This document shows positions 36,574 to 46,165 of a stretch of 47,693 nt of DNA, one piece after another. The notes under the pieces were generated by a model that searched no databases, was not told the origin of the DNA, and was given only the letters and a program-made list of their open reading frames with translations. This DNA is from Candidatus Fimenecus excrementavium (GTDB taxonomy: Bacteria; Bacillota; Clostridia; Oscillospirales; Acutalibacteraceae), in NCBI GenBank assembly GCA_018712805.1, contig DVGI01000011.1:1-47693 (forward strand), in the 5' to 3' direction. The translations under genes were made by a program, and so were the position numbers. Position 1 is the first letter of the stretch, and each line of letters starts with the position of its first letter.

Positions 36574-38475
36574 TTAACGGGTTTTCTTTAAATAGATTGT
36601 CGAAAGCGGCGGCAAGTCCAAAGAAATACTTTGTTCAAAGCCGTGCATGTTAATGGTTTCGGCTTTAATCTTATCTTTATTGCCGCGCCCCTCGCCGCCG
36701 TAGGCGACGTCGTCGGAATTAAAGAACACCTTGTAATTGCCTTTTTTCGGAACGCCGATGCGGTAATCGAGCCGTTCGACGTTGGTGAAATTGCAAACGG
36801 CGATGATTTCTTTCCCGCTTTCGTCTATTCGCCGGAACGCGATAACGGAATTGTCTTTGTCGTCGGAGGAAATCCAGGAGAACCCCTCCCATGAATAATC
36901 CACTTCCCAAAGCGGACGCGTTTTTTTGTAAAGCAGGTTGATGTCGCGGAAATACGCTTGCAGCGCGCGGTGTTTCGGGTAATCGAGCAGCAGCCAGTCG
37001 AGCTCCTGTTCATAATTCCACTCGATAAACTGCCCGAATTCCTGCCCCATGAACATCAGCTTTTTGCCGGGGTGCGCCATCATATAGCCGATAAATGCGC
37101 GAACACCTGCAAATTTTTCGTCGTAAGGTCCGGGCATTTTGTCAATCAGCGATTTTTTGCCGTGGACCACCTCGTCGTGGGAAATCGGCAAAACAAAATT
37201 TTCGGAAAACGCGTAAAACAGCGAGAAGGTAATACAGTCGTGGTTATATTTGCGGAAGAAGCCGTCTAAAGAGAAATAGCGGAGAATGTCATTCATCCAG
37301 CCCATGTTCCACTTGAAGTTAAAGCCGAGCCCGCCCATATAGACCGGTTTCGAGACCATCGGCCAGGCGGTGCTTTCCTCGGCAATCATCATTGCATAGC
37401 TGTAATCGCGGAAAATGCTTTCGTTGAGTTTTTGCAAAAACGCAACCGCTTCCAAATTTTCGTTGCCGCCGTTTTTGTTCGGAATCCACTGGCCGTCGTC
37501 GCGGTCATAATCGAGATAAAGCATCGACGCGACCGCGTCAATCCGCAGACCGTCGACGTGGTATTCGCGAAGCCAAAATACGGCGCTTGAAAGCAGGAAC
37601 GAGCAAACCTCGTTTCTGCCGTAGTCAAACACGCGCGTCCCCCAGGCGTAGTGTTCGCCTTTTCTGGGGTCGGCGTATTCATAAAGCGGTTCGCCGTCAA
37701 ATTCATAAAGCCCGTTGGCGTCTTTCGGGAAGTGGGCGGGGACCCAGTCCAAAATGACGCCGATACCGGCGTTGTGGCAGGTGTCTATAAGATACATCAA
37801 ATCTTCCGGCGTGCCGTAGCGGGAGGTCGCGGCAAAATAGCCGGTCACCTGATAACCCCACGAGCCGTCAAACGGGTATTCCGTCAGCGGCATAAATTCC
37901 ACATGGGTATAGCCCATTTTTTTAAGGTAAGGCACGAGTTCGTCGGCAAGTGCACGATAAGAATAGAAATTGCCGTCCGGGTAACGCTTCCAAGAGCCGG
38001 CGTGCATTTCATAAATATTGACCGGCGACTTATATATGTTTTGCTGTTGGCGCGCGGTAACCCAGGCGTCGTCCGTCCACTGGTAGCCGTTGTCGATTTC
38101 GTAATATTTCGTCGCCGTTCCCGGGCGGGTTTCCATATGCACCCCGTAGGGGTCGGCTTTCATCGTCTCGACGCCGTTTTGCGAAAAGATGTGATATTTA
38201 TACGCATCATACAGCTTGACGCCTTTGACCTGCGCTTCCCAAACGCCGTCGCTTTGCGGCACAAGCTGCATCTTGTCGGCGTCGTCGGACCAGTCGTTAA
38301 AATCGCCGACGACCGAAACGCGCACGGCGTGCGGCGCCCACACGCGGAACACCACCGTATCGGCGTTTTTCCGATGCGCACCGAAATAGGAATAGGCCTG
38401 CGCATTGCTGCCCTCGTGAAACAAATACAGCGGTACCTCGTGTTCGGCGGGTACTGTTTTCGTCTTCTTCGGCAT
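36574..38475 (-). CDS. glgB: 1,4-alpha-glucan branching enzyme
   Basis: This 633-aa GH13 enzyme introduces alpha-1,6 branches. An N-terminal CBM48-like beta domain ([20 protein letters not shown]) precedes the catalytic barrel. The barrel has [32 protein letters not shown] (nucleophile Asp), [11 protein letters not shown] (acid/base Glu) and [17 protein letters not shown]-terminal beta domain follows. The ATG at 38475 is chosen over the GTG two codons upstream because GAGG is 8 bp before it. It is first in the glycogen operon, behind the promoter at 38509-38537. Confidence 0.96.
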
Positions 38476-38508
38476 ATACACTACCTCACAATAACTTACT
38501 ATGGATGT

Positions 38509-43942: not shown

Positions 43943-44101
43943 CGCAAATCTATCAAAATAATTACAATTCGGTTAAATGCGTTGCATTGTTTTTGCGGTT
44001 GTGATAGTCTATCGTTGTCAAAAGGAACGCTTATCATTTGCAAAACGGTCATGCTTCCATATGCCTGTTTTGTCGTCGACCCAAGAATTGGAGGGATTCC
44101 T

Positions 44102-44356
44102 TTGAAACGCACGATTTTAAAAATTTTATTGTTCCTTACAACCGGGCTTGTCAGTTGGTTTTTATTAAGTTTTTACTTTTTCCCGCTGGGGCCTGTCCCG
44201 GATTTTCCTGCAACCGCACCGTTTATTTTAGAGGCGTTAAGCGCCCGTGCGCCGCTGAAACTGGTAATCAGTTTGCTGTTTTCTCTGTTCGCTTTATTTG
44301 TCTATGAACAGCGGACGGGAGAATTTTCCGACGACGGCGTGCAAAAAAAAGATTGA
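44102..44356 (+). CDS. Small two-helix membrane protein
   Basis: The 84-aa product starts at a TTG (44102) 6 bp behind GGAGGG. It has two hydrophobic helices (LKILLFLTTGLVSWFLLSFY and LKLVISLLFSLFALFVY) joined by a short Pro-rich loop. An acidic, charged tail follows (EQRTGEFSDDGVQKKD). Both helices fit a hairpin membrane protein, function unknown. A promoter is not convincing in the 200 bp upstream; the end of the gene contains the -35 of the T-box transcript. Confidence 0.6.
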   Translation: MKRTILKILLFLTTGLVSWFLLSFYFFPLGPVPDFPATAPFILEALSARAPLKLVISLLFSLFALFVYEQRTGEFSDDGVQKKD

Positions 44357-44381
44357 CAAAACCAAGAAACCATGTTTTAAT
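44353..44381 (+). promoter_or_regulatory. Promoter of the T-box malQ-trpB transcript
   Basis: TTGACA (44353-44358) and TTTAAT (44376-44381) at 17 bp. The -35 overlaps the stop of the small membrane protein gene, and the T-box leader starts about 7 bp after the -10. Confidence 0.75.
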
Positions 44382-44387
44382 TGGATA

Positions 44388-44640
44388 AACCGTTGAGGCG
44401 GAAGTAAAACTGCACAACCGAGTTCAAAGAGAGTGGGCGATGGTGAGAATCCCACAGCTGCGGCGCAGACAAATGGTCCGTTGAGGGTGCATTGAAAAGA
44501 TGCAACGGCGCTTTCCCGTTACAGAAAGAGGGATATGTTTGTATTCCGTGAAAGGTGGGCAGACTCGTTTCTGTCAATCAAGGTGGTACCGCAGGTATAT
44601 TTTCGCCTGTCCTTGTTTTATGCAAGGGCAGGCTTTTTTG
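44388..44640 (+). promoter_or_regulatory. T-box leader (tRNA-sensing) upstream of malQ
   Basis: A complete T-box is visible. Stem I carries AGTA on its 5' side, an AGAGAGTGGG arm and a GATGGTGAGAATCCCAC loop region. The specifier side reads ACAAATGGTCC. The T-box element AAGGTGGTACCGCAGG lies at 44579-44594, and an 11-bp terminator (GCCTGTCCTTG / CAAGGGCAGGC) with TTTTTT tail lies at 44605-44639. Uncharged tRNA would favour antitermination. The specifier reads ATG or TGG in overlapping frames. The bulge TGGT pairs with a tRNA having A73, which favours Met, while the downstream TrpB gene favours Trp. Confidence 0.9.
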
Positions 44641-44665
44641 TTTGTCTTATAAAGGAGTTCGGGTT

Positions 44666-46165
44666 ATGTTAAATACAAGAGCAAGCGGCGTTTTGATGCA
44701 TCTTTCCTCCCTGCCGTCGCCTTACGGCATCGGCGTTATGGGGGAAGAAACCAAGCGCTTTATCCGCAAAATCAAAGATATGGGGTTTTCTTACTGGCAG
44801 GTATTGCCTTTAAACCCGCCGGATTTTTACGGCTCGCCCTATGCCTCCAACGCGGCGTTTGCCATTTCGTATTTGTTTATTGACCCGCGCGGACTTGTGC
44901 GCGACAGGCTTGTAAAAGAAGACGAGCTTTCGAGAAGCCTTTATCACGGCTCGCCTTACACGGCGGATTTTGAATTTGCCGCAAACAGCCGCTTGGAGCT
45001 TTTAAAACTTGCTTACTCGCGTATTTCCCCGGAAATGCACAAAAAGATAGAAGAATTTTGCAATGCGCACCATTGGTGTGAAGCGTACACGCTTTATGGA
45101 GCCGCAAAAGAGCGCTTCGGCGGCAAACCGTGGTACGAGTGGGACGAACCGTTCGCCCGCTATGAAACCGCGGTACAGCACGCGGACGAATTAAAAGCGG
45201 CGCAGGACTTTTTCAAGTTCGTACAGTACACGGCGTTCACCCAGTGGCGCGAAATCAAACAGTACGCCAACGAAAACGGCGTGAAAATCCTCGGCGATAT
45301 GCCGATTTATGTTTCGTTTGACAGCGCAGATGTTTGGGAAAATCGGCATCTGTTTGAAATTGACGACCGCACTTTTATCCGCAAGCGCGTTTCCGGCGTG
45401 CCGCCCGATTATTTCTCGGAGGACGGCCAGCTTTGGGGAAACCCGCTTTACGACTGGGTAGCAATGGAAAAGGACAATTATCGATGGTGGTGCGAACGCA
45501 TCCGCGCCGCGTTGCAGCTTTACGACACGGTGCGCATCGACCACTTCCGCGCGTTTGCCTCTTACTGGGCGGTTCCCGCCGACAGCGACACCGCCAAAAA
45601 CGGCGTTTGGGAAAAAGGCCCCGGCAAAGCGTTGTTTGACGCGGTGGAAAACGAGCTCGGCGAAGTGCCGATTGTCGCGGAAGACCTCGGCGTATTCGGC
45701 GAAGACGTTGTGAAACTCCTGGAGGACACGAAGTTCCCCGGCATGCGCGTCATTCAGTTCGGCTTTGAGCCGGACGCGGACAGCACCCACCTTCCGCACA
45801 ACTACCCGCGCAACTGTTTAGCCTATGTCGGCACGCACGACAACAACACCTTGCTCGCGTGGCTTTGGGAGACGGACGACTATCATCGCCGCTATGCGCT
45901 TGACTATTGCGGATTCACCGGCGACAACTGGGGCGAGGGCGGCTTTCACAGCCCTTCATGCCGCAAAATCATTGAAACCGTCTGGCGCAGTCACGCCGCC
46001 ATCGCTATCATTTCCTATCAGGATTTGTGCGGCTTCGGCTCAGACGCACGCATGAATGTGCCCGGCCGTGCTTTCGGCAACTGGCAGTTCCGCACGACCG
46101 AAGATATGATTGCACAGATTGACACCGAATATTACAAAAAAATCAACCGAATTTTTAAACGATAA
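44666..46165 (+). CDS. malQ: 4-alpha-glucanotransferase (amylomaltase)
   Basis: This 499-aa GH77 enzyme transfers alpha-1,4-glucan segments during maltodextrin and glycogen turnover. The product starts LNTRASGVLMHLSSLPSPYG and has WQVLPLNPP, GDMPIYVSFDSADVW, RIDHFRAF (nucleophile Asp), PIVAEDLGVF (acid/base Glu) and the conserved GTHDNNTLL. The ATG at 44666 follows AAAGGAG by 8 bp. It is the first gene after the T-box and lies 14 bp before the TrpB gene, so both depend on the same leader. Glycogen-synthesis genes lie 6 kb away on the other strand. Confidence 0.95.
   Translation: MLNTRASGVLMHLSSLPSPYGIGVMGEETKRFIRKIKDMGFSYWQVLPLNPPDFYGSPYASNAAFAISYLFIDPRGLVRDRLVKEDELSRSLYHGSPYTADFEFAANSRLELLKLAYSRISPEMHKKIEEFCNAHHWCEAYTLYGAAKERFGGKPWYEWDEPFARYETAVQHADELKAAQDFFKFVQYTAFTQWREIKQYANENGVKILGDMPIYVSFDSADVWENRHLFEIDDRTFIRKRVSGVPPDYFSEDGQLWGNPLYDWVAMEKDNYRWWCERIRAALQLYDTVRIDHFRAFASYWAVPADSDTAKNGVWEKGPGKALFDAVENELGEVPIVAEDLGVFGEDVVKLLEDTKFPGMRVIQFGFEPDADSTHLPHNYPRNCLAYVGTHDNNTLLAWLWETDDYHRRYALDYCGFTGDNWGEGGFHSPSCRKIIETVWRSHAAIAIISYQDLCGFGSDARMNVPGRAFGNWQFRTTEDMIAQIDTEYYKKINRIFKR

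Follow-up and report, generated by a model that had tools for sequence, protein, structure and literature searches.

A complete transcriptional T-box precedes malQ, a 4-alpha-glucanotransferase gene, and trpB2, a gene for a TrpB-like enzyme, in the window (the whole stretch of 47,693 nucleotides analysed here, which is contig C45 of genome G000, a genome of 1.85 Mb and 97% completeness). The arrangement is probably best explained by a T-box that reads tRNA-Trp and serves trpB2, with malQ captured between the two and the leader copies kept alike by conversion. On this explanation, malQ and trpB2 would form one transcription unit behind a tRNA-Trp-sensing transcriptional switch: uncharged tRNA-Trp, bound through its CCA anticodon at UGG and its GCCA end at UGGU, would lead to the antiterminator and to transcription of both genes, while without bound uncharged tRNA-Trp RNA polymerase would stop at 44605-44633. 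No tryptophan synthase beta-like gene other than trpB2 was found in the genome; the switch would be present for this gene, whose product would turn scavenged indole and serine into tryptophan. malQ would have come to lie between leader and trpB2, and thus under tryptophan control, when the ancestral genome of a small clade was rearranged. The leader is of the trpX type rather than the usual trpB2 type, and its copies within a genome are alike, most likely via gene conversion.

The T-box leader and the genes behind it

The elements concerned all lie on the forward strand (window positions):

44353-44381, +, promoter read from the sequence: TTGACA (44353-44358), 17 nt, TTTAAT (44376-44381), with TG one base upstream
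about 44388-44633, +, probable Trp T-box leader from stem I to terminator, from the RF00230 match and same-type copies at trpX and trpS
44474-44476, +, probable specifier UGG (Trp), from its invariance in 16/16 leaders, the spacing to GAG and the trpX, trpS and trpB2 context
44584-44587, +, T-box sequence UGGU in the antiterminator bulge, which would pair with the tRNA NCCA end, from the RF00230 match and the leader alignment
44605-44633, +, intrinsic terminator, a 12-pair stem followed by a T-run, whose 5' arm is shared with the antiterminator
44666-46165, +, malQ, 4-alpha-glucanotransferase (GH77), 499 aa, from NF011080, TIGR00217 and PF02446
46180-47559, +, trpB2, TrpB-like PLP enzyme, 459 aa, from NF009057 and TIGR01415

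The covariance model RF00230 matched at 44384-44617 (+) along its entire length (model positions 1-219 of 219; 81.3 bits, E 4.6e-18). As the Rfam gathering score is 93, the leader is absent from a default scan; within G000, the curated score is likewise not reached by the leaders of pheS, thrS and trpX. Across 16 related leaders, pairing was retained in 160/160 cells of the antiterminator helices, 173/176 of the terminator and 128/128 of the specifier-flanking helices, although nearly all pairs are invariant, which amounts to conservation and not covariation. The mutually exclusive antiterminator and terminator helices are both predicted and conserved in these leaders. The single-strand fold of the leader was not significant (z -1.34, with 22/200 shuffles as good), and the evidence is therefore the covariance model together with conservation. 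Further matches, to HepC_CRE and RNaseP_arch, were far under cut-off and are attributed to chance. The promoter carries TTGACAA in 16/16 aligned leaders (by eye). Just 5' of it, on the same strand, is a short ORF that may encode a membrane protein (44100-44356), with counterparts in G003, G012, G019 and G020.

The first gene was assigned to malQ by NF011080 (554 bits, cut-off 477), TIGR00217 (above cut-off) and PF02446, and is the only malQ found in its genome. A start at 44555, given in the ORF listing, was rejected, as that GTG sits within the T-box and 44666 matches both the starts of relatives and the ribosome site. TrpB2 scored above cut-off with NF009057 (678.5 bits) and TIGR01415 (577.9 bits), and trpB2 is the sole TIGR01415 match found in G000; the contig ends downstream of it. 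The RF00230 match, these gene profiles and the 14-nt gap between malQ and trpB2 agree with the preliminary description, which placed a full T-box with terminator directly before malQ and trpB 14 bp further on. A gene for a GlgB-type branching enzyme is located about 6 kb from malQ on the opposite strand (36574-38481).

The tRNA read by the leader

The specifier is most likely UGG, for tRNA-Trp, and not the overlapping AUG, because leaders of the same type precede trpX in G000 and trpS in two relatives. Of the 8 T-boxes in G000, five precede tyrS, valS, leuA, pheS and thrS, and one is upstream of cysS, though with some 700 nt between this T-box and the start of the cysS frame, so that another gene may intervene. 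A further one, L006, shares 95.6% identity with the malQ leader and stands before the gene for a TrpX-like binding protein (PF04392; NF041285 at 265 bits, under the cut-off of 390). The same leader type precedes trpS in G016 (C39:175696-175949, L123) and G031 (C12:260789-261039, L137). No T-box was seen before trpS in the six other linked genomes examined (G000, G003, G012, G019, G020 and G025), and trpS was accordingly dismissed as a T-box gene in G000.

All 16 leaders have one and the same specifier region, AAATGGTCC, and its distance to the following GAG fits (by eye) that of Trp, Tyr and Cys leaders and of other trpB2 T-boxes if the codon is UGG, but not if it is AUG. The discriminator base does not on its own separate the two tRNAs: the leader U suits A73, the base of tRNA-Met in relatives, and forms a G:U wobble with G73, which was present in all 25 tRNA-Trp genes printed from 30 loci scanned in relatives. 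This wobble is found in 46% of the Trp T-boxes in TBDB, according to the available part of PMC7778990. In G000 itself tRNA-Trp was not found by an exact pattern that matches in 60/79 genomes searched, for which a gap in the assembly or a variant sequence could account.

The preliminary description had named tRNA-Met as a possible ligand. A leader reading tRNA-Met (AUG, 44473-44475), or both tRNAs, would be in keeping with the overlap of AUG and UGG and with the Watson-Crick pair between A73 and UGGU, but it would have to accommodate leaders of the same type at trpX and trpS, a codon-GAG spacing that among the patterns of Trp, Tyr and Cys leaders fits only UGG (by eye), and the frequency of U opposite G73 among Trp T-boxes (in the available part of PMC7778990). 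Met specificity was ruled out on gene context and codon spacing, and any part for tRNA-Met is, in our judgement, very improbable.

Distribution of the arrangement

This TrpB2 type occurs in 9/39 genomes of the genus (85-100% identity, E <= 1e-255), and in all nine malQ is found 14-17 nt upstream of trpB2 (hereafter, linked genomes). The T-box ahead of malQ is whole in six of them and partial in two, G025 and G037, where the contig ends within the leader and the T-box motif and terminator are retained; G016 retains just the terminator before malQ, 62 nt from the contig start (found by eye and missed by the T-box regex). A glucan enzyme as first gene behind a T-box, as originally reported for the window, is thus kept in relatives, though the synteny that was proposed for survey is confined to these 9/39 and absent from the rest of the genus. 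Absences in G016 and G020 carry less weight, as these genomes are 81% and 86% complete. Downstream of trpB2, G019, G020, G025 and G037 (L103, L104, L107 and L114) share three conserved genes on the same strand, whose translations look like those of a regulator, an ABC ATPase and a membrane protein.

Upstream of malQ, within 400 nt (234 in G024), no T-box was seen in 11 genus genomes with a close unlinked malQ (60-77% identity) or in G041 of the same family. None was seen at the more distant malQ (42-47% identity) of the three genomes G009, G010 and G011; in G036 the malQ piece is cut by the contig start. The regex used is crude, and T-box counts are lower bounds of which some may be false. Among named-genome trpB2 loci (the best 80 of 593 confirmed), a T-box-like motif lies within 400 bp in 42/80, with one more at 481 bp, and malQ in 0/80. 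A T-box before trpB2 therefore appears to be common, with malQ in between confined, as far as searched, to one clade. These counts favour insertion of malQ into a trpB2 operon, which is the likelier of the two origins suggested at the outset.

Clade history and tryptophan gene content

Linked genomes form one side of a branch in the TrpB2 tree (100/98), where their nearest sequences are those of G059 and G040, from other groups, rather than those of the congeneric G007 and G022. In the trpS tree, from which G037 was left out, eight linked genomes are united in a clade (98/99) together with G007 and G014, the latter 76% complete and without a malQ or trpB2 match. Similarly, the malQ tree places G007 in a clade with the nine linked genomes (97/95), and a linked-only clade without G007 was not firmly rejected (p-AU 0.052), so G007 may have lost the arrangement or never had one. 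In G007, malQ is at the same locus, with shared neighbours on both sides, without T-box or linked trpB2; the locus retains a promoter-like TTGACA with TGTGTTTCAAT.

G007 also has trpA and IGPS. In contrast, trpA was not found in 9/9 linked genomes, and IGPS was above cut-off in 0/9, although five gave weak matches like those at a second place in G007. As neither trpA nor an above-cut-off IGPS was found in the nine, these bacteria appear incapable of de novo tryptophan synthesis, and TrpB2 probably salvages indole, combining it with serine to give tryptophan. However, trpA was present in only 3/29 genus genomes searched (G001, G002 and G007), and the unlinked G006 is without both trpA and IGPS. 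Loss of trpA was thereby ruled out as a hallmark of the linked genomes, and indole salvage, while likely, is not peculiar to the clade. In Bifidobacterium, exogenous indole is described as being salvaged to make tryptophan (available part of PMC11085991). With trpA and IGPS, without the arrangement, and among the linked genomes in both the trpS and malQ trees, G007 provides a natural contrast.

Control of malQ

We infer that malQ and trpB2 are co-transcribed from the leader promoter and that malQ is a passenger there. Expression of malQ mainly by upstream read-through or leaky termination, such that the T-box hardly matters, would draw on the small same-strand ORF just upstream, but it would have to pass a 12-pair terminator that is separated from malQ by only 32 nt, and we consider it quite unlikely. 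A separate malQ promoter, which had been named in advance as an observation that would count against control by the leader, has hardly any room in those 32 nt. The promoter scan lists none between terminator and malQ, a weak control because the leader's own promoter (44353-44381) is also unlisted, the rule of the scan demanding an A as the second base of the downstream hexamer; the 32-nt distance is hence the better argument.

The passenger reading is favoured by the occurrence of T-box and linked trpB2 together in 9/9 genomes and by the lack of a T-box at the 11 unlinked malQ of the genus, suggesting that the T-box is not kept for malQ alone. Against a pure passenger, of 130 columns that are otherwise invariant MalQ retains 128-130 in 9/9 linked genomes, and the unit persists with different flanks in G031 and, downstream, in G016. 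It is possible that starvation is linked to carbon mobilisation, in that a shortage of tryptophan or of amino acids would raise MalQ and the remodelling of maltodextrin or glycogen would provide carbon for salvage and survival. Such adaptive coupling would fit a linkage kept in nine genomes whose MalQ is as little as 65% identical to that of the window, the altered neighbours in G031 and (downstream) G016, the GlgB-type gene in the vicinity, and intact motifs in what is the only copy found in G000; RIDHFR, AEDLG and THDN, which we take to be the GH77 active-site or catalytic motifs, are present in 9/9 linked MalQ. Conversely, the 11 genomes without T-box at an unlinked malQ include G007, at the same locus, and MalQ changes faster relative to TrpS in the linked clade (median ratio 1.9 versus 1.3, from non-independent pairs in which saturation may matter). 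We therefore retain capture of malQ as the preferred reading and regard adaptive coupling as doubtful.

Likeness of leader copies within genomes

Similarity among the leaders follows the genome more closely than the gene. Within a genome, identity between the malQ leader and the trpX leader amounts to 92.3-99.2% in G000, G003, G012, G019 and G020 and to 82.8% in G031, whereas the G000 and G003 leaders are 79.6-83.1% identical to those of G012, G019 and G020 regardless of gene. Between these two sets, 24 leader columns are subclade-specific and none gene-specific, while in the columns upstream of the leader one is subclade-specific and nine are gene-specific, the malQ and trpX flanks not being expected to be homologous. 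The malQ leaders do not form a clade: a single malQ-leader clade was rejected, with the identity table known beforehand, at p-AU 2.7e-63, and at 1.4e-67 without G031. In addition, the malQ and trpX leaders are identical across 112 nt in G037 and 99.1% identical over 110 nt in G025. Contigs break within T-box copies in G025 (C57, C72, C35 and C75), G037 (C40, C46, C34 and C35) and G016 (C34 and C2), as expected where assemblers meet near-identical repeats. Two genomes fit less cleanly, as the malQ leader of G003 is 93.5% identical to that of G000 and 92.3% to its own trpX leader, and that of G031 is closest to its own trpS leader (89.6%).

This grouping by genome suggests gene conversion between riboswitch copies, which is the simplest account of their likeness. 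Alternatively, another Trp leader could have been duplicated anew in each lineage to give the malQ leaders, with no conversion following a single duplication. Repeated duplication predicts the same leader tree, and a leader half at a contig end in G016, with a malQ-like promoter, looks trpX-like (its assignment to malQ being by eye and unsure). However, it would require a leader to be inserted repeatedly at one and the same place, between promoter and malQ, and the malQ promoters of G012, G019 and G020 are alike, yet the leaders of G019 and G020 pair by genome (forks 89/86 and 90/92, not starred), and on balance we find it unlikely. More speculatively, and at best tentatively, the Trp leader could be a self-copying, self-homogenising cassette that spread outwards from trpX, reaching malQ-trpB2 and, in a single lineage, also trpS, with its copies in each genome kept alike by conversion; its capture of the sole malQ would have tied alpha-glucan processing to tryptophan starvation, a link that selection then retained.

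Comparison with known systems

T-box control is used for the prediction of gene function, and malQ would be mis-assigned on this basis, which calls for caution in annotation from leader specificity. Leader copies that change in concert would also provide a natural system for the tuning of a riboswitch regulon to one tRNA and for the capture of regulation by neighbouring genes. T-boxes, Trp T-boxes of trpX and of trpB-like genes, and T-box duplication are already known. Within the open-licence literature, neither a T-box with malQ as first gene nor gene conversion or concerted change of T-box copies was found in print.

To our knowledge, there is no malQ in the trpXYZ system of Streptococcus suis. 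In the available part of PMC9382623, the Trp T-box of that system, which was tested there with reporters, shares with the window's leader the UGG specifier, the layout from stem I to terminator and the control of trpX, but has UGGC where the present leader has UGGU, and trpB has no occurrences in the main text. The mention of malQ in the available part of PMC8546594 is unrelated. The Dehalococcoides T-box before trpB-like genes has its target in common with the window's leader, as a Trp T-box controls trpB2 there (available part of PMC2494555) as it probably does here; at the trpB-like T-box loci among the best 80 of 593, however, trpB2 follows the leader directly, the specifier region is mostly GAAUGG and malQ occurs in 0/80. 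The same part of PMC2494555 describes the spread of T-boxes by duplication to genes of the same amino acid, and the present case resembles it in that a leader is passed on as a unit among genes for a single amino acid, but differs in that the first gene is not amino-acid related and the copies look homogenised within genomes.
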